From Clostridia bacterium (GTDB taxonomy: Bacteria; Bacillota; Clostridia; UBA1212; UBA1255), in assembly GCA_017560765.1 (NCBI GenBank), contig JAFZEI010000055.1, positions 1-59,048 of the forward strand: a stretch of DNA of 59,048 nucleotides. The letters are read 5' to 3'. How positions within the stretch are numbered: the stretch's first letter is position 1; every line of letters starts with the position of its first letter. Below the pieces are notes generated by a model, which was not told where the DNA came from, searched no databases, and was given only the letters and a program-made list of their open reading frames with translations. The position numbers were made by a program, and so were the translations under genes. This document shows positions 3,771 to 34,553 of the stretch, one piece after another.

Positions 3771-6261
3771 TTTCTGCCACCACTTCACCGTTTTTTACGG
3801 TAATAACAATATTTTTACTGTTTGACTCCAACATCATTGTTGAAACTTTATCTTCTATCTCATTTTGCAGCAATCTTTTAATAGGTCGCGCTCCGTATTG
3901 GGGCGTGTATCCCTTTTCTGCTATTAATTCCACAACAGCTTCTTCGACTTTTAGCTTCATACCGTTTGCGGCAGCACGTTTTTCAAGTTTATTGACGAGA
4001 ATAGATGTTATTTGCTTTATTTCACATTTAGTAAGCTGTTTAAAAACAAGGATATCATCAATTCTGTTTAAAAACTCAGGTTTAAATGTTTTCTTAAGCT
4101 CATCGTTTACATTCTTTTTCATTATTTCGTGCTTTTCAGCTTCGGAATGCTGTGTGAAGCCTAAAGTTTTTGGCTCTGAAATATTTCTTGCTCCCACATT
4201 GGATGTCATTATAACCACAGAGTTTTTAAAGTCTAATTTTCTTCCCTTTGAATCAGTTATTTGACCTTCATCAAGAATTTGGAGCAATATATTAAAAATA
4301 TCGGGGTGTGCTTTTTCTATTTCGTCAAAAAGCACAACAGAATACGGTTGATTGCGTATCTTTTTAGACAGCAACGGTTCGTCTGTAAAACCAACATATC
4401 CGGGAGGAGAACCAATGAGCTTCGAAACGCTTGCCGACTCCATAAACTCAGACATATCAAATTTTATCAAAGCAGCTTCGTCTCCGAAAAGTGCCTCTGC
4501 AAGCGCTTTACTAACCTCAGTCTTACCAACACCGGTAGGCCCCAAGAATATAAATGAGCCCACAGGTCTGTTAGGATCTTTAAGTCCTGTTCTGCCTCTT
4601 CTTATAGCCTTTGCCACAGCATTTACTGCATCGTCCTGTCCTACTACCCTCTCATGCATTATGCTTTCTATGTTTAAAAGTCTTTTACTCTCATCTAAAT
4701 CTAATTTTGTAAGCGGTACTCCTGTCCAGTTGGATACTATTTCTGTAATATCATTTTCTTCTACCGTAGGTATGTTGACATTTTCGCCGCTTAACTCTTT
4801 CTTTGCGTCGTTTTTACGCTTTTGTGATGTTAAAAATCTCTCTTCTTTATATAAAGCCGCCGCATCCTCAAATCGTCCTGAAAAAATTGCATCGTCAAGA
4901 TGTCTTCTCGTTTGTTTTAATTGTTCGTCTGAATTGTCGCTTTCTATCATAACCGGAGGCATTTTTTGAAAACTTTTATAAGAAGCAGCCTCGTCTATTA
5001 TATCTATAGCTTTATCCGGCAAAAATCTATCGTGTATATAACGCTTGGACAAATTCACTGCAGCTTTTATGGCATCATCTTTTATGAAAACATTATGATG
5101 CTTCTCATATACACCTTTAAGCCCACGCAGAATTTCAATCGTTTCTTCTTCGTTTGGCTCCTCCACATTAATAGGTTGAAATCTTCTTTCTAATGCAGGG
5201 TCAGACTCTATATACTTCCTGTATTCTCTAAGAGTAGTAGAACCAATAAGCTTTATGCTTCCTCTTGAAAGCTCAGGTTTTAAAATGTTAGCTGCATCAA
5301 GCGAGCCCTCAGCATTTCCCGTTCCGATTATTGTGTGAATTTCATCAAGGAAAAGAATCACCTTAGGATCTGCTTTTGCTTCTGCCAAAACTCTTTTAAA
5401 TCTTTCCTCAAATTCACCTCTGTATTTAGCACCGGAAACCATTGCAGATAAATCAATAGAAATAATGCGCATCTTTTTTAAATTGCCGCCTACATTTCCG
5501 TCTGCAATCATCTGGGCAAGGCCTTCCACAATGGCTGTTTTGCCAACACCCGGTTCTCCCACAAGGCAGGGGTTGTTTTTTGTTTTTCTGCCAAGCACTT
5601 GGAAAACTCTGTTCATTTCTTTTTCTCTGCCAATGATGATGTTCCTTGAGCCTTCTAAAGCTTTTCGTGTCAAATCAGTACCGTATTTTTCAAGGAATGA
5701 CATATTTTCTTCTGATTGTTTTTTTACAAAATCCACAGCCATCCTCTCCATAGGCGTCACATCTTGTCCTCCCCTATGTTTTTGAAGTTCAGCTGTAAAA
5801 TCATCTGTTTGTAAAGCATTTACAATATCTTTAAACAACATTGTAGGATCTACGCCTAAATCTATAAGCACACGTACTGCTATGCTGTCTACTTCTCTGA
5901 AAATAGTTACAAGAAGATGCTCTGTACCCACTTGGCTGTGTCCGTAATTTAAAGCTGTTTCTTTGCTTCTTCTTATTACTCTGTCACACGCAATTGTGTA
6001 AAACACTTCTCCTGTATATACATTTATACTCCCTGTTTGTTTATTTGTTAATCGACAAATAGCTTCGTGTATCTTTACAGGTGTAAGATTATTCTTTATT
6101 AGCACTGTTGCCGCAATACCTATAGGATCGAGACACAATCCGTAAAGTAAGTGTTCTGTACCAACAACATTGCTGCCCAACTCTTTTGCTTCTAATACAG
6201 CATACGAAAGGGCCGCTTGTGCTTTCTCTGTAAAATCTATATTTTCAAAATAACCTTGCAT
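3757..6261 (-). CDS. clpC: ClpC-type AAA+ unfoldase
   Basis: This 834-residue protein is an Hsp100 unfoldase that feeds substrates to ClpP. It has a double Clp N-domain (residues 1-150, with the repeat GTEHLL at about 34-39 and 112-117), AAA domain 1 (Walker A GEPGVGKT 235-242), a UVR-like middle segment (about 445-480) and AAA domain 2 (Walker A GPTGVGKT 574-581). The UVR segment and length mark ClpC rather than ClpB. AGGAGG precedes the ATG. The gene starts 8 bp after holA and overlaps radA. The usual partners ctsR, mcsA and mcsB are not beside it, so control by CtsR/McsAB cannot be assumed. A second Clp ATPase (ClpE-like) lies at 15885-18230. Confidence 0.93.
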   Translation of the reverse strand: MQGYFENIDFTEKAQAALSYAVLEAKELGSNVVGTEHLLYGLCLDPIGIAATVLIKNNLTPVKIHEAICRLTNKQTGSINVYTGEVFYTIACDRVIRRSKETALNYGHSQVGTEHLLVTIFREVDSIAVRVLIDLGVDPTMLFKDIVNALQTDDFTAELQKHRGGQDVTPMERMAVDFVKKQSEENMSFLEKYGTDLTRKALEGSRNIIIGREKEMNRVFQVLGRKTKNNPCLVGEPGVGKTAIVEGLAQMIADGNVGGNLKKMRIISIDLSAMVSGAKYRGEFEERFKRVLAEAKADPKVILFLDEIHTIIGTGNAEGSLDAANILKPELSRGSIKLIGSTTLREYRKYIESDPALERRFQPINVEEPNEEETIEILRGLKGVYEKHHNVFIKDDAIKAAVNLSKRYIHDRFLPDKAIDIIDEAASYKSFQKMPPVMIESDNSDEQLKQTRRHLDDAIFSGRFEDAAALYKEERFLTSQKRKNDAKKELSGENVNIPTVEENDITEIVSNWTGVPLTKLDLDESKRLLNIESIMHERVVGQDDAVNAVAKAIRRGRTGLKDPNRPVGSFIFLGPTGVGKTEVSKALAEALFGDEAALIKFDMSEFMESASVSKLIGSPPGYVGFTDEPLLSKKIRNQPYSVVLFDEIEKAHPDIFNILLQILDEGQITDSKGRKLDFKNSVVIMTSNVGARNISEPKTLGFTQHSEAEKHEIMKKNVNDELKKTFKPEFLNRIDDILVFKQLTKCEIKQITSILVNKLEKRAAANGMKLKVEEAVVELIAEKGYTPQYGARPIKRLLQNEIEDKVSTMMLESNSKNIVITVKNGEVVAENGKD

Positions 6262-6269
6262 ATTTCCTC

Positions 6270-7247
6270 CTACTGACCAATTGTTAAAAGTTCAAGGGCT
6301 GCATAGTCTTTTATAAGACCACTTTTTATCGACATATCCATTTCTTCACAAAGTTCTATTTTTGCTTTAATAAACTCTAAACTCATACGACCTGCTTGCC
6401 TGGAAAGTTTAGAAGCAGCAAAATCTTTTATACCAAGATACGAAGCAATTTCCGCATTGCCCGTACCCTCTGACATTAACTTCTTAACACTGTAAAGCTG
6501 CGACCACATTTTGCTCAAAACGGCTATTATCTTCACAGGCGGTTCTTTATCCTCCAAAAGCCCTTTCATAATCCTATAAGCTTTATCCGTATCACCGTTT
6601 GCCACCGCATCATTAAGATCAAACAACCTGGGACTGTAATGCATACTGCAAAGCAAATCTATGTGTTCCTTATTAATCTCGCCGCCTTGCGGTACGTAAA
6701 GTATTAATTTTTCAAGCTCTGTCATTAATCTTGAAATATCATCCCCAACGCCATCTATCATGTATTGCAGTGCAAAATCCGAAACAGTTCTGCCGGCTTT
6801 TTTTATTTCATAAGCCAAAACTTTTTTTATCTCTGCCGGGGACTGTTTCTTACATTGGAAAACAATTCCCTTTTCACATACTGTTTTATAAAGCTTATTG
6901 CGCTTATCGGCTTCAAACTCCTTAAAAACAATAACTGTATCGCTATTTTCAGCTATATCTACAAAAGACGTCTCGGTAGCCGCTTTAAACATACCGCTGC
7001 CACTTACCACCACAAGTTTTTTATCTCCAAACATAGACGTCGTTGCACATATAGACTCAATTTCCCTTACATCTGCATCTTGTCCGAAGAAATAACAATT
7101 CATACTGTCAACATCAAGCCTTGCGCGTATCCGACTTTCATATAAGTCTTTAAGATAACTTTCAGGGCCGTAAAAAAGGTATACGTTTTTAAGATCTTCA
7201 TTTTGAAGATGATTTTTTATTGCTTTTATGTCTTCAATTTCTGCCAT
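6270..7247 (-). CDS. holA: DNA polymerase III subunit delta
   Basis: HolA is the delta subunit of the clamp loader; it opens the sliding clamp during replication. The 325 residues fit the family length. The N-terminal part (VYLFYGPESYLKD) is the usual degenerate AAA+ fold without a functional P-loop. The middle and C-terminal helical regions, such as YSPRLFDLNDAVANGD and the following helices, match the delta collar. The start codon lies inside the 3' end of comEC (22-nt overlap), an arrangement often seen in Firmicutes. clpC follows after 8 bp. Confidence 0.88.
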   Translation of the reverse strand: MAEIEDIKAIKNHLQNEDLKNVYLFYGPESYLKDLYESRIRARLDVDSMNCYFFGQDADVREIESICATTSMFGDKKLVVVSGSGMFKAATETSFVDIAENSDTVIVFKEFEADKRNKLYKTVCEKGIVFQCKKQSPAEIKKVLAYEIKKAGRTVSDFALQYMIDGVGDDISRLMTELEKLILYVPQGGEINKEHIDLLCSMHYSPRLFDLNDAVANGDTDKAYRIMKGLLEDKEPPVKIIAVLSKMWSQLYSVKKLMSEGTGNAEIASYLGIKDFAASKLSRQAGRMSLEFIKAKIELCEEMDMSIKSGLIKDYAALELLTIGQ

Positions 7248-12617: not shown

Positions 12618-12944
12618 TTAAACGGCATCGTGAATACTTTCGCATTTTTCTATAAATTGGAAAACTCCTGACATTTCCAGAATACGCGTAGCATTGGGGT
12701 TGTTGCAAATAATCCACGCCTTGCCGCCCAACGCTTTTACTTTCTTATATCTGCCCATAAGCATTCCTATACCTGAGCTATCCATAAATGACAATCCGTT
12801 AAAATCAAACAGTATATCTCTGACCGGCGGCTTAATAAGCTCCGAATCAATCCTAATTCTTATTTCATCTGCAAAATGGTGATCAAGTTCACCGGAAACT
12901 TTAACTATCAACAAATTTCCGGTCTTTGCTAATTCAAATTTCAT
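12618..12944 (-). CDS. spoIIAA: Anti-anti-sigma factor SpoIIAA
   Basis: SpoIIAA is a STAS-domain protein which, when dephosphorylated, frees SigF from SpoIIAB. The 108 residues from the ATG at 12944 match the family. The switch motif FMDSSGIGMLMGRYK holds the phosphorylatable serine, by alignment Ser57. GGAGG lies 7 nt before the ATG, while the longer upstream frame has no good SD. No spoIIE phosphatase gene is in this window. The upstream gap carries a strong palindrome (12986-13005). Confidence 0.94.
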   Translation of the reverse strand: MKFELAKTGNLLIVKVSGELDHHFADEIRIRIDSELIKPPVRDILFDFNGLSFMDSSGIGMLMGRYKKVKALGGKAWIICNNPNATRILEMSGVFQFIEKCESIHDAV

Positions 12945-12985
12945 TGTATTATCCTCCTTTAATTTGAGTACAGGTTCATAATACA

Positions 12986-13020
12986 ATTATTTCCCGGGAA
13001 ATAATCAAATCCGGGAAATA
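12986..13020. promoter_or_regulatory. Perfect 20-bp palindrome plus half-site upstream of spoIIAA
   Basis: ATTATTTCCCGGGAAATAAT at 12986-13005 is a perfect palindrome. The half CCGGGAAATA (12994-13003) recurs at 13011-13020, 17 bp away. On the minus strand the palindrome lies between TTGATT (13008-13003) and TATTAT (12983-12978). That is a possible promoter with a long 19-bp spacer. No SigH-like or Spo0A-box sequence was recognised here. It looks like an operator for an unknown factor. Confidence 0.5.
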
Positions 13021-13037
13021 TTCTAAAACAAAATTTT

Positions 13038-13904
13038 TTATTGATTTACATTGATATGGCCGGCCATTTCTTCTAATTTTTTCAGCCTGTGCGCAACGCC
13101 TGATTTACTGAGTACGGGAACAAGCAGCATTCCTAACTCTTTTAGGCTCAAAGATTCATTTTCTACTCGCAATATTGCAATTTCTTTAAGCTGCTCCGGC
13201 AGCGTTTCAAAGGTTGCTGTTTTCATAAATGACGAAAGTAATGCTGTCTGCCTTGCTGCTGCCGCCACTGATTTATCTAAATTTGCATTATCGCAATTCA
13301 TCATCCTGTTGGCATCACTATTGCCCTTTTTTATAATATTTCTGTTTTCAAACTCCAACATTGCACCAACAGCGCCTATGTGTGCCAAAAAATCAGAAAC
13401 TCCGTTTATGCTTTTTATGTAAACGACTTCTCTGTCGTTTCTTTTGGTGACATTATACGGAATACCGCACTGATACAGCTGCTTTTTGCATATTTCCGCC
13501 GCCAAGTTATTTTTAAAAGCTATTTCTGCTCTTGCAGGCTTATCCGGCGACGCAATGTATCCGGAATACAAAAAGCAACCTCTCAAAAAAGAATTACTGC
13601 AACAAAATTTGCTTTGCTCTTCATTATAGCAAACAGAATTCCCACGATAAATCTCCACTCCGTAGCAAATGCCGGTTTTCTTGTTTTTGCAAAAATATAC
13701 TCTCTTTTCAAACCCAATCGACTTTGCTTTTGAAGCCAAACCGTTTATCCTGCGGACTAAATTTTTATCTTTTAATTTAAAATTATTCTCCCCATGCATC
13801 AAAAGAAATGCGGAAAGCTCGGCTGCCGCGCAACATTTTGATTTAATATCAGAAACAATAAGTTGTTGTTTTAGCTGTGAAGAATAACTTGAATTTTGTT
13901 GCAT
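13038..13904 (-). CDS. whiA: DNA-binding protein WhiA
   Basis: WhiA is a conserved Gram-positive DNA-binding protein linked to division and, in actinobacteria, sporulation. It joins a LAGLIDADG-like N-terminal domain to a C-terminal helix-turn-helix. The family segments SSQLKQQL near the start, CFLRG-type FLRGCFLYSGYI in the middle and SKSGVAHRLKKLEEMA at the end are all visible. The ATG at 13904 gives 288 residues and the usual start. An in-frame GTG at 13916 would overlap the upstream gene, and neither start has a clear SD. In Bacillus it sits with rapZ (yvcJ) and yvcK, but here it follows helD. Confidence 0.9.
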   Translation of the reverse strand: MQQNSSYSSQLKQQLIVSDIKSKCCAAAELSAFLLMHGENNFKLKDKNLVRRINGLASKAKSIGFEKRVYFCKNKKTGICYGVEIYRGNSVCYNEEQSKFCCSNSFLRGCFLYSGYIASPDKPARAEIAFKNNLAAEICKKQLYQCGIPYNVTKRNDREVVYIKSINGVSDFLAHIGAVGAMLEFENRNIIKKGNSDANRMMNCDNANLDKSVAAAARQTALLSSFMKTATFETLPEQLKEIAILRVENESLSLKELGMLLVPVLSKSGVAHRLKKLEEMAGHINVNQ

Positions 13905-13905
13905 T

Positions 13906-15888
13906 TTAATTATCACATTCTTTTTTTATCACAAGTAACTCATGCATAGCTCTTGTACATGCCGTATACATCATATCTGCCGGCATATCCCACACTATGG
14001 CAAAATCATATTCCAATCCTTTAGCAATATATAAGGGCAGAACTTTAAAGTTGACCTTATTGCTTACGAAACATTCCTTTTTAATACAGCCCTCAAATTT
14101 ACGTGCCTCTGCTCCGCTGCGACAAATTACCGCAATGTTTTCGTATCCCTTTTCTATTGCCTGTTTTATATACTTTTGTGCCTCAAATGCTGCCTGTTCG
14201 GTATTTTCTGCCTTTATTTCAACAGGAGAACAGCCTTCACGCACACAATTTGTTTCTGTATTTTGACTTTGATATTTAGACGCATATTCAACAATCTGAC
14301 GTGTAGAGCGGTAATTTGTATTAAGCTCATACGTTCTGAAAGGTCTTTTTTTAATAATGCTTTTAATATCCTTTACAAAGTTGCCTTGATTTCCCATTAT
14401 TTTCTGATTGCAATCTCCTACAAAAAGCATATTAGAGCCTTTATATACGATTTTGAGAAGCTCTATATAAACAGGCACATAATCCTGAGCTTCGTCTGCA
14501 ATAATATAAAAATTATTTACAGCTATATCAGGTTCATACAAAGCCACATATATAATAGCCACGGCACAAGCATCCTCCCAAGAGTCATTTGCAGGTGCAT
14601 AATCAGCAATCTCAGGATATACGCTGTACATCTTTCTGTATAAGACAGGTGCAGACATAGACATAAGCATAAAATCAAGCTCCATTTTGATTTTCTCTAT
14701 CAACTCGGGAGTTCTTATTTTGTTTTGTTCTGCCACGAACACAGCTATTTTCTCTGTTCTTTGCATTATTGGCAAGTCGGAATACGTAGAATAAAACAAA
14801 TCATGCAGAAGCTCAGCAGGAACTTTTCTGCCGCCGTCATCATCCAAATCAAGATCCTCTGCCATAAAAATATTCTGTCTCAGATACTTTACGTATTCTG
14901 CTACTTTATTACGAAAATCCATTGTGGATTTATACTCTGCCAAGCGTTTATAACCGATGCTTTCAGGAGTGCTGCTTTGAATTATTTCTTGCTGTGAAAG
15001 TCTGTCTGTAAATTTATAATCCTCTAAATCTTTAAGCGCATACTGTATTACGTCTTCAAACAGAAACTCTTTTACACTTTCTTCTCCTAATTCCGGCAAA
15101 ACTGACGAAATATATTCTGAAAACACACTGTTCGGAGAAATAATTGTCACTTCTCCGTGTTTCAGTCTATCTCTGAAAGCATAAAGAACGTATGCAACTT
15201 TATGAAGGGCAATAGAAGATTTTCCGCTGCCTGCACAGCCCTGTATAACAGCGATTCCTTCAATGTAATCACGTACAATTTTATACTGTTCTTTTTGAAT
15301 AGTCTGCAATATTGTTTTCATGTGCGTATCAGAGTTTTGATTAAGCACTTCGCACAGCATTTCATCATCGGAAGGCATTCCGATTTCTGTGCTTTTAATC
15401 AATTTACCGTCCTTGAAAACATATCGCTTTTTCTTAAGCAAATCGCCCTCAATAACACCTGCAGGTGCGGAAAAATTAGCTTTGCCGGGCTCTGCTTCAT
15501 AATACAGTGACGCAACCGGCGCACGCCAGTCTGTAGTCACTATAGCACCTGTTTCCGGTTGGCGCAGTGTGTGAATACTAAGATAATAATTTTCTTCCTC
15601 GTCTTCACCTTTTTCTTTAAATGTAAAGCCTGCAAAATACGGTTCTTTTAACTGCTTTCCCAAACGTGCCACAAACTGAAGCGAATACGCATATGCATTA
15701 GTATCCAAAAGCTCATTCTCAAGCAAGTCTTTCTTTTCATCATCCTTAAGCTCATTGAAATAGTCGTTAAAATACTTTCTTTCTTCAAGAATATTTTCAC
15801 GACGCATTTTTAGATGTGCAAGCTCAGAATCAATACATTTTTTTACTACTTCAAGTGTTTCTCTGACATGCTTTTCTTCGTTGTTCAT
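13906..15888 (-). CDS. helD: HelD-type RNA polymerase-recycling helicase
   Basis: This 660-residue protein is a superfamily 1 UvrD/Rep-like ATPase of the HelD group, which binds RNA polymerase and releases it from stalled complexes. The HelD-specific coiled-coil start spans residues 1-80, the DWRAPVASLYYE motif 120-131, and Walker A GCAGSGKS 217-224. The Walker B-like ADEAQDY and a C-terminal helicase segment with MMYTACTRAMHEL follow. The ATG overlaps the clpE stop by 4 nt (ATGA), so the two are translationally coupled. whiA follows at once. Confidence 0.9.
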   Translation of the reverse strand: MNNEEKHVRETLEVVKKCIDSELAHLKMRRENILEERKYFNDYFNELKDDEKKDLLENELLDTNAYAYSLQFVARLGKQLKEPYFAGFTFKEKGEDEEENYYLSIHTLRQPETGAIVTTDWRAPVASLYYEAEPGKANFSAPAGVIEGDLLKKKRYVFKDGKLIKSTEIGMPSDDEMLCEVLNQNSDTHMKTILQTIQKEQYKIVRDYIEGIAVIQGCAGSGKSSIALHKVAYVLYAFRDRLKHGEVTIISPNSVFSEYISSVLPELGEESVKEFLFEDVIQYALKDLEDYKFTDRLSQQEIIQSSTPESIGYKRLAEYKSTMDFRNKVAEYVKYLRQNIFMAEDLDLDDDGGRKVPAELLHDLFYSTYSDLPIMQRTEKIAVFVAEQNKIRTPELIEKIKMELDFMLMSMSAPVLYRKMYSVYPEIADYAPANDSWEDACAVAIIYVALYEPDIAVNNFYIIADEAQDYVPVYIELLKIVYKGSNMLFVGDCNQKIMGNQGNFVKDIKSIIKKRPFRTYELNTNYRSTRQIVEYASKYQSQNTETNCVREGCSPVEIKAENTEQAAFEAQKYIKQAIEKGYENIAVICRSGAEARKFEGCIKKECFVSNKVNFKVLPLYIAKGLEYDFAIVWDMPADMMYTACTRAMHELLVIKKECDN

Positions 15889-23282: not shown

Positions 23283-23311
23283 TTGACTGTACTCTGTAAA
23301 AATGTTATTAT
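23283..23311 (+). promoter_or_regulatory. Promoter of the LuxE/LuxC-type operon
   Basis: TTGACT (23283-23288) is followed after 17 bp by TATTAT (23306-23311), a near-consensus housekeeping promoter. It gives a leader of about 35 nt ending in the strong SD GAGGAGG before the ATG at 23352. No clear operator repeat is seen. Confidence 0.65.
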
Positions 23312-23351
23312 TTAATTACTTTCAAACTCACTTTGAGGAGGTTAATTAACT

Positions 23352-24470
23352 ATGACAGCAAGACAACAGCTAATAGAACTTCACGATGTTTATGATCATA
23401 AGGGTTCATCGGACATTTTCTTGGAAGCAATGCGTGATTGTATCAAGCATCACATTAAAAATAATCAGTTTTTTAGACAATATATGTCAAAAGAAGGATT
23501 TGATCCCGACACATTGCAAGCTGAGGATGATTTAAAAAGGATTCCCTTTATACATGCCAACTTCTTTAAGAAATACGAGGTACTCAGCGTACCGCGTGAA
23601 GATATAGTTTTTTATGCCACAAGTTCAGGAACAACAGGTCAAAAAAGTCAGATGTTTTTTGATAAAGACTCAAACGACTTCGGCAATGCAATGATAAAAA
23701 ACGAATTCAGATATTTTAACTTTTTATCAGACGAGTTGACCAATTATCTGCTCTTTACATACGAACCTGCTCAAACGAGTAAAAATTTGGGAACTGCACA
23801 AACAGATATGGGCTTACTTCAATATGCGCCTGTAAACGACACTTTCTTTGCACTCAGATATAATGGACAAGGTCACGATTTTGATGTTTACGGCACCATA
23901 AATGCACTCGAAGAATATGAAAAGCAAGGTCGTCCCGTTCGTATTTTCGGTTTCCCATCTTTCTTGTATTTCACACTCAAACAAATGAAAGATATTGGTC
24001 ACAGACCTCTCAAACTTAACAAAAAATCCATGACAATGCTCGGCGGCGGATGGAAAGGCTATGCCGATAAACAAATACAAAAATCAGAGCTATATGCACT
24101 TGCAGAAGAAATGCTCGGCATTCCGGAAGCAAATTGCCGTGACGGATACGGTTCTACCGAACATTCCGTACCATATTTTGAATGTCCGCACCATCACTTT
24201 CATATACCGGTTTACAGTAGGATGATAATCCGTGACGTAGAGACATTAGAGCCGCTTCCCTACGGAATGCCCGGTTTTGCCAACTTTATTACGCCTCACC
24301 TTATGAGTGTACCCGCAATTTCCGTACTTATGGGAGACATGGCTGTTTTACATGCTCCCGAAGAATGCGAATGCGGCATTCAAACTCCATATATGGAAAT
24401 AATCGGCAGAGCAGGTACAAGCAAAGGCAAGAGCTGTGCTATAACGGCAAGCGAACTTTTAAAACGCTGA
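23352..24470 (+). CDS. LuxE-type acyl-protein synthetase
   Basis: This 372-residue protein resembles LuxE, which adenylates a fatty acid and moves the acyl group to its own cysteine before LuxC reduces it. The ATP-binding loop SSGTTGQKS is at residues 91-99, and a GYGSTEHS-type motif follows in the second half. Two Cys/His-rich spots (ECPHHHFH and ECECG) may bind metal. Cys362 lies in GKSCAITASELLK at the C-terminus, where LuxE carries its acyl-accepting cysteine. It is the first gene of a five-gene operon, with GAGGAGG before the ATG. No luciferase genes accompany it, so the acid substrate is unknown. Confidence 0.85.
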   Translation: MTARQQLIELHDVYDHKGSSDIFLEAMRDCIKHHIKNNQFFRQYMSKEGFDPDTLQAEDDLKRIPFIHANFFKKYEVLSVPREDIVFYATSSGTTGQKSQMFFDKDSNDFGNAMIKNEFRYFNFLSDELTNYLLFTYEPAQTSKNLGTAQTDMGLLQYAPVNDTFFALRYNGQGHDFDVYGTINALEEYEKQGRPVRIFGFPSFLYFTLKQMKDIGHRPLKLNKKSMTMLGGGWKGYADKQIQKSELYALAEEMLGIPEANCRDGYGSTEHSVPYFECPHHHFHIPVYSRMIIRDVETLEPLPYGMPGFANFITPHLMSVPAISVLMGDMAVLHAPEECECGIQTPYMEIIGRAGTSKGKSCAITASELLKR

Positions 24471-24483
24471 GGAGGTTGTTTTT

Positions 24484-26949
24484 ATGGACGTTATTATTAA
24501 GGGTAAAAGAATACAAACAGACAAAAACAATTGTCTTAATAATGTAAACGAATGGATAAACGAAACACTATCACAAGACACTTTAAACGTAAGACGAGTA
24601 ATAAAAGCACTTGACGAATTGGGACAATATTTGATAAATAACAAAGAATTCCTTCTTCCCGAATTGTGCGAGTTAGGTTTTTCAACAGAGGAAGCAATTC
24701 AAATAAAAAAAGATTCTCTCGGTGTTTTGTCGGCCGATGAACTATTTAAAAAGATAAAAAGAGAGCTCGGCGGTATGCCGTTTGAAATCAACAGGTTAAG
24801 CTCTCGCGAAGACGAGTTCGAAGGATGGATGCCTGTAGGTGTTTTAGGTCACGTAACCAGTTCAAACGATGCTATGCTTCCATTTTTCAGTTCGGTTGAA
24901 GGTATTTTAACAGGCAACATTAACATCATAAAAACAGCTTCGACAGCACGAAAAGTGGCCATGACTATGATTGAAAAATTATGTGAGATTGACGAGACAT
25001 TGGCACCGTACTTTTATGTTTTCCCGTTTTCTTCAAAAGACGAGGCACTTTTAAAGGAAATGTTTGCACTTTGCAACGCAGTTGCTGTTTGGGGGTCTGA
25101 CGCTGCTACATCAGGCGTACGTAAACTCGCACCTGCCGGGGTTAAAATTATAGAATGGGGCAGCAGAATAAGTTTTGCATATTTTACAAAAAAAGGATAT
25201 ACAAAAGAAGCACTAAAAGGATTGGCAGAAGACGTGTGTGTCAACGACCAACAAGCTTGCAGCGCACCGCAAGTTGTTTATTTCGAAGCAGATAATAAAG
25301 AAGATCTCATTTCTTTTGCCGAAAGCTTTATGCAAATACTTCAAGAGGTATCTGACACATATCCTCTTCACCCCATGTCTCAAGCAGAGCACGCTGAACT
25401 TACGACTCAAAAACAACTTTGCTACTTAGACGAGATAATGGGCAAAGGGAAATTAATAGATGGCAAAGGTTGTCGAATCTTTGTAAGATTTGACGAGGAA
25501 TTGTGTGCATCTCCCCTTTTCCGTACTATTATTGTAAAACCAATTAAAAGAAATAATTTGATATCAATTTTAAGACCTTTTCGTTCTTATTTACAAAGTG
25601 TAGGTCTTGCGTGTGGCAAAGAAGAAATAGCACAATTAAGCAACCTCTTATACGCGGGTGGCGCAAGTAGAATTACCGAACCCGGACTAATGATGGGCGG
25701 TTACACAGGAGAGCCTCACGACGGAGTTCGTGCGATGACACAGTATCTCAAACGAGTAAGTCTTATTAACAACAATCTTCCCAAAGGCAGTATGTCTTTA
25801 TCTGAAATGCGCCCGATGGATATCGCGCCTTTTGAAAAAGGCACACCTCTTATGAACAAAAGCGACTTCCCTCAAATGCGCGAAATTTCCGACAAAGGTT
25901 ATCTTGTGTTAAAAAGCGGTGGCAGTTCAGGTAAGGCAAAATACGCACCGCACTCATATGACGATGCACAAACAACATACGATGAAACTGCACGCTTCAT
26001 AATAGCCGCAGGAGTAGATCCTAAAAAAGACATCTGTATGAATCTTTTCTATTCAGGTGGACTTTATGGCGGTTTCATAAGCATATATGAAGCATTAAAA
26101 AAAGCAGATGTCATACAGCTTCCCATGACTGCACAAAGTGATACAGAATTTGTAGTACAGGAAATAATTGCTAATAATGTAAATTTAATTATGGGTATGC
26201 CCACTTACATTCTTAAACTCTTCAGCGAGCAAAAAGAAGCTCTTCAAGAATATGCTCATATAGAAACAGTATTATACGGCGGCGAACATTTTGATCCTGC
26301 ACAAATAACATATTTAAAAGAAACATTCAATGTTCAAAGAGTTGCCTCACTTGTTTACGGTTGTAACGAAATAGGTTCTATGGGATATGTTTGCGAGCAT
26401 TGCGAAGGCAGCATTCATCATGTTGTTGCTACAAAATACCTTGAAATACTTAAATTAGACAAAGACGAGCCAGTTGAGCCGGGTGAAATCGGCAGATTGG
26501 TATGGACACCAAGAGATCAAGAAAACATCGAAATCAAGCGATACGAGATAGGCGATTTAGGCCGTTTTATCAATGAACCTTGCAAATGCGGCAGATTGGC
26601 GCCTCGTTTCGAGCTTTTGGGACGCTTTGGTGACATTTTTAAGTTTGCCACAAATTATGTCAATTACCAAAACATAAAAGCTATTTTCGCCAAAGAAATC
26701 GGCTATACGGGATGGCTTCAAATAGTTCTCAGCTACAACACCAAGGACAGCATGGAGATTCGCGTAGAAGATAATATTTCCGTATCCGAAGCAGAAACTC
26801 TCAGCGTATTAAAAGCGCACTCCCCCGAAGTTGCAGAAACACTCGATGACAACACCGGCAACATCAGAATAATCAAACAAAGCAAAGATACTTTTGAGCT
26901 CAGCACAGGCGGCGGCAAAGTCAGAAGTGTTATAGATTTGAGAAAATAA
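24484..26949 (+). CDS. LuxC-type acyl reductase fused to a PaaK-like adenylating domain
   Basis: This 821-residue fusion joins two activities. Residues 1 to about 430 look like LuxC, an aldehyde dehydrogenase-like reductase that turns a thioester into an aldehyde with NADPH. They include GHVTSSNDAMLPF and the nucleophile motif QACSAPQ with Cys259. Residues about 440-821 look like a phenylacetate-CoA ligase type (PaaK/CapK) adenylating domain, with the P-loop SGGSSGK at 478-484, YGCNEIGSMG, RYEIGDLGRF (686-695) and CKCGR. It starts 13 bp after the LuxE gene behind GAGG. The fusion suggests that activation and reduction occur on one polypeptide. The adenylating half is paralogous to the protein at 30013-31260. 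Confidence 0.85.
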   Translation: MDVIIKGKRIQTDKNNCLNNVNEWINETLSQDTLNVRRVIKALDELGQYLINNKEFLLPELCELGFSTEEAIQIKKDSLGVLSADELFKKIKRELGGMPFEINRLSSREDEFEGWMPVGVLGHVTSSNDAMLPFFSSVEGILTGNINIIKTASTARKVAMTMIEKLCEIDETLAPYFYVFPFSSKDEALLKEMFALCNAVAVWGSDAATSGVRKLAPAGVKIIEWGSRISFAYFTKKGYTKEALKGLAEDVCVNDQQACSAPQVVYFEADNKEDLISFAESFMQILQEVSDTYPLHPMSQAEHAELTTQKQLCYLDEIMGKGKLIDGKGCRIFVRFDEELCASPLFRTIIVKPIKRNNLISILRPFRSYLQSVGLACGKEEIAQLSNLLYAGGASRITEPGLMMGGYTGEPHDGVRAMTQYLKRVSLINNNLPKGSMSLSEMRPMDIAPFEKGTPLMNKSDFPQMREISDKGYLVLKSGGSSGKAKYAPHSYDDAQTTYDETARFIIAAGVDPKKDICMNLFYSGGLYGGFISIYEALKKADVIQLPMTAQSDTEFVVQEIIANNVNLIMGMPTYILKLFSEQKEALQEYAHIETVLYGGEHFDPAQITYLKETFNVQRVASLVYGCNEIGSMGYVCEHCEGSIHHVVATKYLEILKLDKDEPVEPGEIGRLVWTPRDQENIEIKRYEIGDLGRFINEPCKCGRLAPRFELLGRFGDIFKFATNYVNYQNIKAIFAKEIGYTGWLQIVLSYNTKDSMEIRVEDNISVSEAETLSVLKAHSPEVAETLDDNTGNIRIIKQSKDTFELSTGGGKVRSVIDLRK

Positions 26950-26970
26950 CAATAAGAAAAGGTTTTATTT

Positions 26971-28605
26971 ATGAATGATAAATATTTGTACAAACACAAT
27001 CCTATAGTTAAGCGAATATTTTTATCAATGCTCGCCCCTACTATTTTGATGAATTTGACAACCGCGATAGGCTCTGTTGCCGATACAATTATCATCGGGC
27101 AGTATTTAGATGATTTATCGCTGTCCGTTGTTACTTTTGCGACACCGATTTTCATGTTAATAAATACTTTCGCGGCACTTTTTGCCGTCGGAGGATGTAT
27201 CACAATGAGCATCGATGCCGGTAAAGGAGATAAAAAATCAGCCAATCAAGCATTCAGCTTATCCATCGAGCTGCTCTCTTTTATCGGTATTTTGTTTTTT
27301 TTCGCAGGTACATTTTTTAGCAATACCATTACCGGTTGGCTTGGTGCCAGCGGCGAAGTTTTCGGTTTGGTAGAACAATATTCACGTATTATTCTTATAG
27401 GCGGACCAGCTTTTGTTATAAATATCGGTTTGGCTTTTTTTGTACGTAACGATGGTCGTCCTACTCTTTCTATGATCGGAATGTTTTCTTCGATTATAGT
27501 GGACATCATTCTTAATTTTGTTTTTGTCGGCTATCTCGGCTACGGTGTATCAGGTGCGGCTTATTCGACTGTAATCGGTCAAATTGTGAGTATATCAATT
27601 ATCGCTACTCATTTCTTTTCCTCTGTAAATACATTAAAGTTCTATTTTACCTTAAATAAAAACATATGCCGTGTTATCAAAAACGGTGTAAGCTCTGCTC
27701 TCAATTTTGTTTATCAGTTTTTGATAATTCTTATTATGAACCATATTTTGGTAAAACTGGCTCCTGCAAACGGTGTTATTATTTATACCGTGGTATTTAA
27801 TTTATCTACCGTTTCACTTTCTGTGTTCGAAGGCATAAGCCAGACAATTCAGCCTATGATAAGTACATACTTTGGTGAAAAAAGCTTCAAAAACATTAAG
27901 GCAACACTTCGCTTGGCATTTATTACAATTTTGGTTATTTGCGGCAGTGTTACTCTCCTTTTGGAAATTTTCCCGCAGCTTGTCCCTATTATTTTCGGTA
28001 TTGATGATAGTGTTTTGATTCAAGAGTCCGCGGTAGCTGTTCGTATTTTTGCTACAAGCATGATAATAATGACGATTAATGTCGTTATCGGTTATTACTT
28101 ACAATCTACCGAAAAAACAACACTTTCGACAATTTTAGTCAGTCTGCGCTCTTTTGTTTTTTTACTTAGTTCAACCATTATTTTGGGGTTAATCTTTGGT
28201 ATAAACGGTATATGGACTTCATATACCATCGCAGAAGTATCAGCTTTCATTTTTATCGTATCTTTTCTCAGTGCAAAAAAAGCAAAAAACAGTATAAAAA
28301 CAGACGAAAACGGTATATACTGTTTAACCTTTAATTGTTCTGAAGACAAGTTAGAAGATTTTATATCATATGCGGAATCTTTCATTAAAAAAAATAATTT
28401 TTGCACAGAAGTTTGCGACAACGTATCCCATTACTTATCTATGCTAAAAGAATTTAGCGTTATTAAAAACAGTAAATTTATTGAAATTGAAATAAATAAT
28501 ATTGATAACAAAATCATTATCAGAGACAATCTAAAACGCACAACAATATCCGAAGATGCTCCGGTACTCGGATGGAACAGATTGTGTATTAAGCAAGGAG
28601 AATAA
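26971..28605 (+). CDS. MATE-family exporter with degenerate HATPase-like tail
   Basis: Residues 1 to about 445 form a twelve-helix MATE multidrug/metabolite exporter (N-terminus KRIFLSMLAPTILMNLTTA; family motif DTIIIGQYL). About 97 further residues follow (448-544). They resemble the anti-sigma-factor ATPase domain found at the end of some clostridial MATE proteins: the RDN-type strand IIIRDNLK is visible, but the N-box acidic residue and asparagine are not. The tail is therefore probably not an active kinase. The gene starts 21 bp after the reductase fusion and 2 bp separate it from the next gene. It probably exports the operon's product, but this is inferred from context only. Confidence 0.85.
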   Translation: MNDKYLYKHNPIVKRIFLSMLAPTILMNLTTAIGSVADTIIIGQYLDDLSLSVVTFATPIFMLINTFAALFAVGGCITMSIDAGKGDKKSANQAFSLSIELLSFIGILFFFAGTFFSNTITGWLGASGEVFGLVEQYSRIILIGGPAFVINIGLAFFVRNDGRPTLSMIGMFSSIIVDIILNFVFVGYLGYGVSGAAYSTVIGQIVSISIIATHFFSSVNTLKFYFTLNKNICRVIKNGVSSALNFVYQFLIILIMNHILVKLAPANGVIIYTVVFNLSTVSLSVFEGISQTIQPMISTYFGEKSFKNIKATLRLAFITILVICGSVTLLLEIFPQLVPIIFGIDDSVLIQESAVAVRIFATSMIIMTINVVIGYYLQSTEKTTLSTILVSLRSFVFLLSSTIILGLIFGINGIWTSYTIAEVSAFIFIVSFLSAKKAKNSIKTDENGIYCLTFNCSEDKLEDFISYAESFIKKNNFCTEVCDNVSHYLSMLKEFSVIKNSKFIEIEINNIDNKIIIRDNLKRTTISEDAPVLGWNRLCIKQGE

Positions 28606-28607
28606 TT

Positions 28608-29990
28608 ATGTTTACAGGAAAAATTTGTTCAATATCTATACTCAACAAAAAATTTTACTTAAATGCGGTTAATGGTTTTTTAGAGTCACTTGCCGATAAT
28701 CACAAAAGCAAAAACAACGAAAGATTTTTAAATTTCAAAGAAGCTGTTATTAAAATACTTGAACTTAGAATAGATAACGCCTACCCGGGATGTGACGGAA
28801 TAATAAATATCGATATGTCGCTTACCGAAGATTATATAGAAATTTCCATAAACGACAAAGGTGTTCCATGTTGGATAGATGATTTCAAAAGTGAAAAAGT
28901 TGATTCTATCGGTATGGAAAATTTAGGTAAAGACGGCCAGCGAATTTTTGTAAGAATGTATATGCTGAACATGATTGTATTTAAAGAACCTGATCCATTC
29001 CCTGAAATGCAAGTATTGGACACAAACATCTCAATAAAACGTGTCGAAACAGAAAAAGATGTTCTCGAAGCAATCAGATGTATTTACAGCGAATACGGAT
29101 ATTCATATTCTTATCAAAAGTTTTATTATGTTGAAAGTTTTATGAATGCTATCAAAAAAAAGGAAATAATGTCATTTTTGGCAGTTAACGAGCATGGTCA
29201 AACAGCAGGTCATTTCGCACTTTTATTTTCTGATAAATTCAAGAATATGCCTGAAATTTCCACGGTTGTTACTCGAAAAGAATTCCGCGGCTTAGGTTTA
29301 TTTGCAAAATTTATGGATTATAGCATTGAACTGGGAAAAGCGAACAATTTCCGTGCATTGATGGGGCAACCCGTAGCCTTTCATTCCATGTCTCAAAAGG
29401 CTTTTATAAAGGCCGGTTTTACTGCCACCTCCCTATTACTTTCATATATAAATGCCGAAATCGAAAGTGAATATAACAAAAACAAACAGAGAATGGATTT
29501 ATTTGCCGCTGTAAAAATTCTTGACGAATCAGCTTGCGGTGTGATTTATCCTCCCGAAGAAATAAAATCTTTTATAGAAAATATACTGACAAAAGCAAAT
29601 TACAATTATCAAATCGGTGCTAAGGCGGCAAAAGCAAAAGAAACTCAAATCAATGTCCATACCAGCCGACACTTAAAAATGACGAGAATCATTCTTTCTG
29701 CGGCTGATGATTTTTTCGAAAGAGTATTAAGAGAGACAGTAAAAGACTCTATAAAAAATAAACTTGATATGATAGAACTTATGATTTCTCTTAACACCCC
29801 GAGCTGTGAATTTGCTTATAGAATTGCAAAAAAATGCGATTTTAAAATTTCGGGAATTCTCCCGGGCAGTGAAATAGCAGATTATATTATAATGCAATTA
29901 CTGCTTGCATCAGATTATGATTATGACAGTTTGATTGCTGTAGGCGATTATGAAGATCTCAAAAATGAGATTATTGACTTAAACAAATAA
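28608..29990 (+). CDS. HATPase-like domain fused to GNAT acetyltransferase domain
   Basis: This 460-residue protein starts with a region like the RsbW/SpoIIAB ATPase fold (residues 1 to about 135). It has a G1-like motif NDKGVP (82-87) and a GKDGQRIF segment, but the N-box reads EAVIK where Asn is expected, so ATP/Mg binding is doubtful. A GNAT N-acyltransferase domain follows (about 140-285), with the acetyl-CoA loop FRGLGLF at 226-232 and the FIKAGF motif. The C-terminal 160 residues are alpha/beta and unassigned, possibly a second GNAT-like fold. It starts 2 bp after the MATE gene. It could modify the operon's product or sense it; neither can be shown from sequence. Confidence 0.78.
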   Translation: MFTGKICSISILNKKFYLNAVNGFLESLADNHKSKNNERFLNFKEAVIKILELRIDNAYPGCDGIINIDMSLTEDYIEISINDKGVPCWIDDFKSEKVDSIGMENLGKDGQRIFVRMYMLNMIVFKEPDPFPEMQVLDTNISIKRVETEKDVLEAIRCIYSEYGYSYSYQKFYYVESFMNAIKKKEIMSFLAVNEHGQTAGHFALLFSDKFKNMPEISTVVTRKEFRGLGLFAKFMDYSIELGKANNFRALMGQPVAFHSMSQKAFIKAGFTATSLLLSYINAEIESEYNKNKQRMDLFAAVKILDESACGVIYPPEEIKSFIENILTKANYNYQIGAKAAKAKETQINVHTSRHLKMTRIILSAADDFFERVLRETVKDSIKNKLDMIELMISLNTPSCEFAYRIAKKCDFKISGILPGSEIADYIIMQLLLASDYDYDSLIAVGDYEDLKNEIIDLNK

Positions 29991-30012
29991 TTTTAGTGTA
30001 GGAGAAACAAAA

Positions 30013-31260
30013 ATGAGTGTAAAAATATATTCCGCAGAAGAAATAATACAATATGCAAGAAAGAATTCAAAATATTACGCTGAATTATACAGAGACATAC
30101 CTGAGAATGCCTGCCTTACTGATTTACCTTTGATTGTACAAGATGACTTTTGGGCCAATTGCGATAAAAACGGATATTGTGTTGCGACTCGTGAGCAAAC
30201 AGACGGACAAATTTTTAAAAGCGGCGGTACTACAGGCAATCCTAAATATTCCCTCTATACTGCAGAAGAGTGGCAAACAATGTGTGAGTGCAGCGGTGCT
30301 GTATTAACACGAGGAGGTCTAAAAAACGGTATGAAAATCGCAAACCTTTTCTATGCTGGCGGTCTTTATGCAAGTTTCTTGTATACATACAGTATGCTCT
30401 ATTTTGCCTCTGCAAAAACTCTTGTGTATAACTTATCAGGAAATATTGATATTGAAGAAATTGTCCATACCATACACGATCACAAAATCAACTGTATTGC
30501 AGGACTGCCGTCAATACTTACTAAAATTGTTTCATATATTGAAGAAAATAATATGACCGGTTTTGCTGTTGATACGATATATTTTGCCGGCGAAACACTT
30601 TATCAAGACCAAAGAGATAAAATCAGCAATGCTTTTGGCAGAAACATTGATTTTAAATCGATTTTTTATGCGTCCAATGACGGCGGCCCGATCGGTTACT
30701 TTACAACCGATTGCGGATTCAATGAGCACAGAGTAATGTCCGAACTTACAATTTTAGAGTTAATAGACCCCGACACAGGTGAAATTATTACTGAAATGAA
30801 TCGTCCCGGCGTTATATATATTACTTCTCTTTTTAAAACTCTAATACCTCTTATTCGTTATCCTGCGGGAGATATCGGTGAATACACCGAACCAGAAGGC
30901 AATCCCGACCGTAAATTCAGAATTCTCGGCAGAAGCGATGTTGCTGCCAGAGCCGGCTATGTTTCTCTGTATTATCAAGATATAGGCAGCATTTTAAAGA
31001 AGTGCGGTATAGACTATTATTCATATCAAATCATCTCAAAACGCAGTGAAAAAGATTACTTCGTTTTCAGAATAGCTGCTCCGAAACAGGGCGATACGGA
31101 TAAATTTATTGATATGCTTCTAAAAGAACGTTCATTTTTAAAAGATGCTCTTGACGACGGTACATTAAACTCCCCTGTTGTGGAATGGTGCAAACCTACC
31201 GATTTGGACTACAACCCACGAACAGGAAAGCTTAAATCTATAATTGATATGAGAAAATAA
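30013..31260 (+). CDS. PaaK/CapK-like adenylate-forming enzyme
   Basis: This 415-residue protein belongs to the phenylacetate-CoA ligase-like branch of adenylating enzymes. The P-loop SGGTTGNPKYS is at residues 70-80, NLFYAGGLYASF and YFAGETL follow, and RYPAGDIGEY is the adenylate-binding motif. It is a paralogue of the C-terminal half of the LuxC fusion: both have NLFY(S/A)GGLY, and both end in similar K-(V/L)-(R/K)-S-(V/I)-I-D-(L/M)-R-K tails. Canonical PaaK proteins are slightly longer. It closes the operon 22 bp after the GNAT gene, behind GGAG, and ends 6 bp from the convergent M14 gene. Confidence 0.83.
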   Translation: MSVKIYSAEEIIQYARKNSKYYAELYRDIPENACLTDLPLIVQDDFWANCDKNGYCVATREQTDGQIFKSGGTTGNPKYSLYTAEEWQTMCECSGAVLTRGGLKNGMKIANLFYAGGLYASFLYTYSMLYFASAKTLVYNLSGNIDIEEIVHTIHDHKINCIAGLPSILTKIVSYIEENNMTGFAVDTIYFAGETLYQDQRDKISNAFGRNIDFKSIFYASNDGGPIGYFTTDCGFNEHRVMSELTILELIDPDTGEIITEMNRPGVIYITSLFKTLIPLIRYPAGDIGEYTEPEGNPDRKFRILGRSDVAARAGYVSLYYQDIGSILKKCGIDYYSYQIISKRSEKDYFVFRIAAPKQGDTDKFIDMLLKERSFLKDALDDGTLNSPVVEWCKPTDLDYNPRTGKLKSIIDMRK

Positions 31261-31266
31261 TTCTGA

Positions 31267-32583
31267 TTATAAATTAGCTGCCTCAACAGCTGCCAAAGAC
31301 ATCAAAGGCTCATTAGCCCTATAAATAGTATCAAATTGAGCTACAGACAAAGGATTTATACCGATGCCGCATTCAATGGTATATCCGGGGCGATTGTTTT
31401 CTTGTATAAACCAATCCTTGTACCCGGCATAGCCTGATTCTGTCGGTGTTAATTCAAGAGAATATCCACTTGCTTCGGATAATTTACGCCCTATTTCAAG
31501 AGAACCCTCAGGCTCATAGTCAAGATATTTCCAGAAAATAACATTACCTTGCGTATGATAAGATAATGTCAATTTAAAGGCATTCCGACGGGTAAAATTG
31601 CCCAAAGCAACGCTTTCCGCCTCAGAAAAAGCAAAAGGTCCCACATAGTCCCGCGGACCGGGCAAATTATATCCTTGTGCAAACTTAATTTCACGTGCCT
31701 GTTCCCATCCGGCAGGATAATTAAGATTCAAATCGACGCCTTTTATATTAGCCTTCCACCCTGTCGGGAATTGAATATTCGGATAATTTTCTGAAAGTTT
31801 TTTTGCTGATTTATATATATCACTGTCTTTGTCAAAGTAACCGTTTACCAAATCCACTCCATCAGGATTAACCATTGGTACAATGTGGATTCGACACAAA
31901 TCATAAATGGTTTTGGCATTATAACCACCAACATCACCGCCAAAGGCATAAGCCTTAGCTAATTTCTCAATATATTTAAGAACCACAGGTATTGTTATCC
32001 ACTCGTTTGCGTGGTGTGATGCATTATACATAACACTTGTATTACCCTTGCCAAAAGTAATGCAGTATAAACCTCTCCCCAACTCACTGTTCCCTATAGT
32101 ATAACTCTCCAAAAATGGATATCGGGCAATAATCCCTTCTATAAACAAAGACATTAGCTCCCATGTATATGAAATTTCACCGTAAGTAACTGTATTTTCT
32201 CCGTTATAAAAGCCTAACGGGACATTAATTATCGCCCCAATCGGTAAATTATTAGGCGATATATTCGGATTAGCAACGCTGATAGCTTGCGAAGAAGTGC
32301 CGTAACGTCTTGAAATTTTATAAAAGGTGTCACCGGACTCAATCCTGTATCTTAAAAAGCCCGTAATGTATGGCAGCAACTTTTTCCATGTAGCCGCACC
32401 TACCACACCGTCAACAGTAAGGCCGTTGTCTCTTTGAAATTCTCTCACAGCTAAATACGTGCTCTCCCCAAAAACACCGTCAATGCCCTTGTTCCTACCT
32501 TTTATGTTGTAACCTGCTCGTAAAAGAGCAAGCTGAAGCATTTCCACTTGCGGGCCTTTGTCACCGCGTCTTAATAATATCAT
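31267..32583 (-). CDS. M14 gamma-D-glutamyl-diamino acid endopeptidase (sporulation type)
   Basis: This 438-residue enzyme should cut the peptide of peptidoglycan between D-Glu and the diamino acid. It has a peptidoglycan-binding domain (residues 5-70, with DGVFGESTYLAVREFQ), a LysM domain (about 79-122) and an M14 zinc carboxypeptidase domain. Zinc ligands H191 and E194 lie in HHANE, the third ligand H343 is in SYHTQG, and the catalytic E404 is in TIECG. No signal peptide is present, as in the sporulation endopeptidases ENP1 and YqgT, which act in the mother cell. AGGAGG precedes the ATG. A SigK-like promoter may lie upstream. Confidence 0.9.
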   Translation of the reverse strand: MILLRRGDKGPQVEMLQLALLRAGYNIKGRNKGIDGVFGESTYLAVREFQRDNGLTVDGVVGAATWKKLLPYITGFLRYRIESGDTFYKISRRYGTSSQAISVANPNISPNNLPIGAIINVPLGFYNGENTVTYGEISYTWELMSLFIEGIIARYPFLESYTIGNSELGRGLYCITFGKGNTSVMYNASHHANEWITIPVVLKYIEKLAKAYAFGGDVGGYNAKTIYDLCRIHIVPMVNPDGVDLVNGYFDKDSDIYKSAKKLSENYPNIQFPTGWKANIKGVDLNLNYPAGWEQAREIKFAQGYNLPGPRDYVGPFAFSEAESVALGNFTRRNAFKLTLSYHTQGNVIFWKYLDYEPEGSLEIGRKLSEASGYSLELTPTESGYAGYKDWFIQENNRPGYTIECGIGINPLSVAQFDTIYRANEPLMSLAAVEAANL

Positions 32584-34417: not shown

Positions 34418-34553
34418 AGTTCGGCTCTCAAGGGTACAGCCGGAAAGGATACGGCACACAGAGGGCTTCGCTTACCGCTGCTTCCTTCCGGACCTGACGG
34501 GGTTCACAAATTTCTGTTGCGTATGTCCCGGCTGCACCTTTGAAAGCCGAACT
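34418..34553 (-). ncRNA. ffs: Signal recognition particle RNA (4.5S type)
   Basis: The minus strand encodes the conserved SRP RNA domain IV, with CAGGTCCGGAAGGAAGCAG at 34496-34478, flanked by long complementary arms. The 5' AGTTCGGCTTTCAAAGG arm pairs with the 3' CCCTTGAGAGCCGAACT arm. The RNA binds Ffh and directs membrane proteins to the translocon. The ends are set from the limits of the terminal stem, giving about 136 nt, the short form without an Alu domain. Confidence 0.95.

Follow-up and report, generated by a model that had tools for sequence, protein, structure and literature searches.

Gene content of the operon

The window, meaning the whole 59,048-nucleotide stretch of clostridial DNA that was analysed, carries five open reading frames at positions 23352-31260, all on the + strand in its ORF listing. 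They are separated, in order, by gaps of 13, 21, 2 and 22 bp and form a five-gene operon. Its features are listed below under the leup gene names that the homology described in the next section supports.

23283-23311, + strand: sigma-70-like promoter, TTGACT-17-TATTAT with an extended -10 TG (consensus match only)
23352-24470, + strand: LeupA homologue, LuxE family, 372 aa (PF04443, E 1.8e-39; LuxE 7xc6_E, E 3e-21)
24484-26949, + strand: LeupB homologue, a fusion of LuxC and a PaaK-like adenylation domain, 821 aa (Pfam, NCBIfam and PDB)
about 24586-25746, + strand: LuxC reductase part of LeupB (LuxC, E 8.9e-81), with catalytic Cys259
about 25828-26946, + strand: PaaK-like adenylation part of LeupB, with P-loop SGGSSG and Lys812
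26971-28605, + strand: MATE exporter, 544 aa (PF01554, E 2.9e-29)
about 28288-28602, + strand: extra C-terminal domain of the MATE protein (last about 105 residues), with secondary structure strand-helix-helix-strand-strand, an RsbW-like order
28608-29990, + strand: LeupD homologue, RsbW/SpoIIAB-fold domain followed by a GNAT domain and a second GNAT-like half, 460 aa
about 28617-28967, + strand: degenerate RsbW/SpoIIAB-fold domain of LeupD (fold match)
about 29022-29543, + strand: first GNAT domain of LeupD (GNAT fold, Z about 13)
30013-31260, + strand: LeupC homologue, stand-alone PaaK-like adenylating ligase, 415 aa, with P-loop SGGTTG and Lys406

The putative promoter scores 10/12, which places it among the best sites of the region, and it is the sole one of those that bears the TG. 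A GAGGAGG ribosome-binding sequence precedes the first ATG, that of the leupA homologue. This layout is the one given in the initial annotation, which described five co-directional genes with gaps of 2-22 bp behind one good promoter and assigned them to the LuxE, LuxC-adenylation, MATE, HATPase-GNAT and adenylating-enzyme families. The HATPase assignment is borne out by fold and by homologues rather than by Pfam. The annotation had also remarked on the lack of luciferase genes, and the ORF listing and Pfam/NCBIfam scans indeed place none of luxA, luxB and luxD among the five operon genes. Pfam and NCBIfam likewise detect, in the five proteins, none of the carrier-protein and condensation domains that produce nonribosomal (NRPS-made) peptide aldehydes.

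On its 5′ side the operon is flanked by a divergent gene, named uvrB from its sequence. A convergent gene at 31267-32583 (- strand), 6 bp past the operon end, encodes an M14 carboxypeptidase with LysM and peptidoglycan-binding domains and is probably unrelated to the operon. Further downstream lies a bacterial small SRP RNA gene (34435-34533, - strand).

The residues expected to carry out catalysis are strongly conserved across the family. Cys364 of the LuxE protein (LeupA) is present in 99 of 99 sequences, as are nearly all positions of that protein's P-loop; in the alignment with authentic LuxE (7xc6), Cys364 pairs with the C-terminal Cys. Cys259 of the LuxC part of LeupB is found in all 102 sequences, and each PaaK-like domain keeps its C-terminal lysine throughout (Lys812 in LeupB, 99/99; Lys406 in LeupC, 90/90).

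Homology to leupABCD and conservation of the gene set

A literature search on LuxC/LuxE gene sets returned no relevant description. The combination of three adenylating domains, a carboxylate reductase and an acetyltransferase led us to suspect the pathway of leupeptin, which is acetyl-Leu-Leu-argininal. Li et al. in 2020 reportedly described its gene cluster, leupABCD, in Klebsiella, Photorhabdus and Xenorhabdus. Coordinates and primers for leupABCD of Klebsiella have been published (PMC8283571), and a MIBiG entry for the leup leupeptin cluster is cited elsewhere (PMC10548850).

Primers leupA_f and leupB_r both match one locus, L128, exactly and lie 1,235 bp apart, the size of the published amplicon; L128 was taken as the Klebsiella leup reference from this primer match together with a genus search. 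At L128, leupA_f falls in the LuxE gene and leupB_r in the LuxC-adenylation fusion. These positions identify leupA as the LuxE gene, leupB as the fusion, leupC as the PaaK-like ligase and leupD as the GNAT gene. An earlier reading of the primer spacing, with leupA as the GNAT gene, was rejected on the same grounds. With 8691 taken as the likely LeupA start codon and 2864 as the LeupD stop, the genes span ~5,828 bp against 5,831 bp published, and an MFS gene adjoins the L128 leup genes, matching the published transporter. The fusion is carried by 14 of the 392 genomes of the family to which L128 belongs.

Three of the four biosynthetic proteins in the window align readily with their L128 counterparts: LeupA at 46% identity (E 2e-118), LeupB at 34% over 751 aligned columns (E 5e-151) and LeupC at 36% (E 2e-77). 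LeupD is more distant. BLASTP recovers 26% identity over part of the first GNAT half (E 2e-7), and a profile match extends across both halves (probability 98.7, E 2e-16). This distance, and the extra domain that LeupD bears, were counted against the leup reading. The window nevertheless holds a LeupA with a C-terminal relay Cys, the LeupB fusion, a LeupC ligase, a LeupD GNAT protein and an adjacent transporter, of the MATE type. Judged by sequence, the operon is thus a member of the published leupABCD cluster type plus an exporter. The initial annotation could put no established name to this combination of genes, a statement that no longer holds, since the primer match and homology equate the set with an already characterised cluster.

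With the LuxC-adenylation fusion as query, tblastn recovered full-length homologues from Streptomyces and Salmonella plasmids; where these were annotated, LuxE, PaaK-like and GNAT genes lay next to them. When GTDB genomes were scanned with a profile built from six sequences, 453 fusion relatives came up, the best 80 of which were kept. These best 80 of 453 span Bacillota, Fibrobacterota, Bacteroidota, Pseudomonadota, Bdellovibrionota, Actinomycetota, Elusimicrobiota and other phyla, and 60 of them have at least 5 kb on each side of the fusion. Among these 60 flanked loci, LuxE occurs in 59, a second PaaK-like gene in 57 and a GNAT gene in all 60; the complete set of LuxE, fusion, PaaK-like and GNAT genes is found in 56, across many phyla, a count that is silent on LuxC without the fusion, as the loci were picked through the fusion itself. 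Such recurrence indicates that the grouping is more than chance, and the neighbourhood search that had been suggested with the fusion as query finds the genes regularly together rather than rarely. LeupA adjoins LeupB in nearly all loci. Six further loci, five of them clostridial and one from Fibrimonas, share the window's order A-B-MATE-D-C; gene orders are approximate for GC-rich loci, where ORFs were read stop to stop.

In trees of both the fusion and the ligase, the window falls in the same clade of Clostridia, mostly from ruminant gut, with Fibrimonas nearby. A long branch separates this clade from the enterobacterial leup clade. Within the source genus the fusion is present in two of five genomes. 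In the other carrier (L015) it follows asd-dapA-dapB rather than uvrB, and in two non-carrier genomes the neighbours of uvrB differ.

Several related loci show departures from the usual cassette. Two Salmonella conjugative IncF plasmids carry a leup-like cluster (L009, CP054717.1, 8251-14414; L011, CP053580.1) with a truncated MFS-type exporter remnant of 121 aa upstream, and the GNAT gene of L011 is broken into two frames. E. coli matches to the Salmonella cassette were rejected as merely an insertion-sequence end. Near the leup-like cassette of L028, a 1,385-aa protein (2616-6770, - strand) has an N-terminal LuxE domain and a remainder without clear family. At L014 (15178-17517), a 435-aa ORF and an APH-like kinase ORF, both outside the usual cassette, lie between the cassette and MATE genes. 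A Chloroflexota plasmid (L013, CP069395.1, 4877-7278) carries LuxE beside a LuxC that lacks the adenylation domain, possibly a simpler relative of the cassette. Viral contigs scanned for the fusion and for the leup primers gave no match. A LuxC-like reductase is encoded at 12870-14108 of MT835565.1, a human-faecal record from a phage collection named Bacteriophage sp.

The added domains of LeupD and the exporter

The N-terminal domain sets the window LeupD apart. It has no Pfam match to HATPase and gives weak RsbW matches in NCBIfam. In an AF2 model (pLDDT 87), residues 5-120 match RsbW (6m37) with Z 14.9 and an rmsd of 2.1 over 111 aligned residues, and the same domain matches SpoIIAB with Z near 14. 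A HATPase is also detected at the N-terminus of LeupD homologues from the window's own group, several Proteobacteria and Bacteroidota. The N-box (E..N), which binds ATP and Mg, is lost in the window and in the whole clostridial clade and is canonical in most proteobacterial relatives; this loss makes kinase activity unlikely in the window's clade. We infer regulation of LeupD by its RsbW-like domain. Nine relatives (L014, L023, L030, L032, L033, L038, L048, L062 and L073) have a SpoIIE gene near the cassette, and in three of them, L014, L023 and L048, a STAS gene adjoins it; neither gene is adjacent to the window operon. A SpoIIE-HATPase and STAS pair elsewhere in the source genome was discounted as generic and unlinked to the operon.

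Residues 12-445 of the third gene product match the MATE fold (Z 38.7). Its C-terminal extension was considered as a second HATPase because the order of strands and helices is the same, but sequence comparison lends this no support (hhalign probability <1%).

Proposed pathway, alternatives and known systems

From gene content, conservation, leup homology and the intact catalytic residues we infer a product, an order of steps and an assignment of each ligase to a bond. The operon is very likely a clostridial leupABCD-type cluster for the synthesis and export of an N-acylated peptide aldehyde, either leupeptin or a close relative. The steps proposed here draw on general knowledge of lux and ANL enzymes. 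LeupD, the GNAT protein, would acetylate the first amino acid. LeupC and the C-terminal half of LeupB, whose PaaK-like domains are most likely amide ligases, would each activate a carboxylate by adenylation and close one amide bond. LeupA would then adenylate the completed peptide acid and load the peptide onto its Cys364, from which the LuxC half of LeupB would receive it on Cys259 and reduce it with NADPH to the aldehyde, leaving export to the MATE protein. Two amide bonds and one reduction fit the count of three adenylating domains. The scheme also draws on older cell-free work on leupeptin, which reportedly found that acetyl-leucine is made first, that an ATP-dependent synthetase then builds the peptide acid, and that this is reduced with ATP and NADPH. 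Identity to the characterised type is just 34-36% for LeupB and LeupC, and their clade sits on a long branch, so the residues that are joined may differ from those of leupeptin.

A bolder extension of this scheme is put forward tentatively: the gut Clostridia would make a peptide aldehyde other than leupeptin, and the RsbW-like domain of LeupD (relatives have SpoIIE and STAS genes close by) would tie the acetylating first step to partner-switching signalling. We know of no such peptide-aldehyde pathway under partner-switching regulation.

Within the leup reading, the working product could be a pyrazinone signal derived from the cleaved peptide aldehyde rather than the aldehyde itself. Leupeptin and its pyrazinone are produced from leup clusters in Klebsiella and Photorhabdus, and the leupeptin-derived pyrazinone is reported as an autoinducer and a histamine H4 receptor agonist (PMC11480411). 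However, the cassette has no protease gene linked to it, and the adjoining M14 gene lies on the opposite strand, outside the conserved set. We consider such a signal unlikely here, though it fares better than the readings that follow.

The initial annotation had proposed that an aldehyde, or else an alcohol or amine derived from it, is made and exported as a small molecule; in that reading, as taken here, the aldehyde would be fatty or aryl and the PaaK-like domains would form CoA esters. This accommodates the LuxE/LuxC chemistry, the PaaK similarity and the exporter, but all four biosynthetic genes are homologous to the leup genes for a peptide aldehyde, and two amide bonds, a single reduction and an N-acetylation would account for the three adenylating domains and the acetyltransferase. 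An aldehyde pathway with an acyltransferase, an exporter and no luciferase thus stands, the aldehyde being very likely; fatty aldehydes, and the alcohols or amines they could yield, are improbable beside an N-acylated peptide aldehyde, the most likely product.

A decaying, non-functional copy might be suspected from the lost N-box and the patchy occurrence in the genus (two of five genomes), but the five frames are open, every catalytic residue is intact and the N-box loss is common to the whole clostridial clade, so that decay appears very improbable. Least probable of all is a role of the LuxE/LuxC set in modifying a surface glycan or flagellin: LuxE/LuxC-like genes of glycosylation islands may have such a role, and papers on flagellin glycosylation reportedly mention LuxC/LuxE, yet among the operon's ORFs Pfam and NCBIfam detect no glycosyltransferase, sugar or carrier-protein genes, and the LuxC-adenylation fusion and ligase mark the leup family.

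To judge from its sequence, then, the leup-type operon is real, conserved and meaningful, and differs from the published type in exporter, gene order and LeupD architecture. What is new is a clostridial branch, mostly from ruminant gut, with MATE in place of MFS, a different order, a degenerate RsbW-fold domain on LeupD and SpoIIE adjacent in several relatives. Inhibitors of the leupeptin type act against trypsin-like and cysteine proteases, and the clostridial branch would imply that strict anaerobes of the gut may carry the same chemistry. In Klebsiella the leupeptin-derived pyrazinone modifies the output of siderophores and is an activator of a human histamine receptor (PMC11480411). A testable idea of how the pathway might be switched comes from the HATPase-LeupD fusion and from the nearby SpoIIE gene of several relatives. 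Across many phyla, genes with no annotation beyond 'acyl-CoA reductase' or 'acyl-protein synthase' can be read as leup genes where the fusion and its partners occur.

Among the closest known systems is the leupABCD cluster of Klebsiella, Photorhabdus and Xenorhabdus, which, like the window, unites LuxE, the LuxC-adenylation fusion, a PaaK-like ligase, a GNAT protein and a transporter in one operon. The window operon has a MATE rather than an MFS transporter, the order A-B-MATE-D-C rather than A-B-C-D, an RsbW-fold domain on LeupD and 34-46% identity for LeupA to LeupC. The leup-like clusters of Streptomyces and of Salmonella plasmids share the same four biosynthetic genes, but have an MFS exporter or none intact, a LeupD without HATPase and another gene order. 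The fatty-acid reductase of luxCDABE has the LuxE and LuxC families with their relay cysteines in common with the window, whereas the operon lacks luxA, luxB and luxD, fuses LuxC to an adenylation domain and scores far under the NCBIfam cut-offs for true LuxE and LuxC. Finally, RsbW/SpoIIAB anti-sigma kinases resemble the N-terminus of LeupD in fold, and SpoIIE and STAS genes lie near the cassette in some relatives; in contrast to these kinases, the LeupD domain is fused to an acetyltransferase, has lost its N-box and belongs to an operon without linked SpoIIE or STAS.
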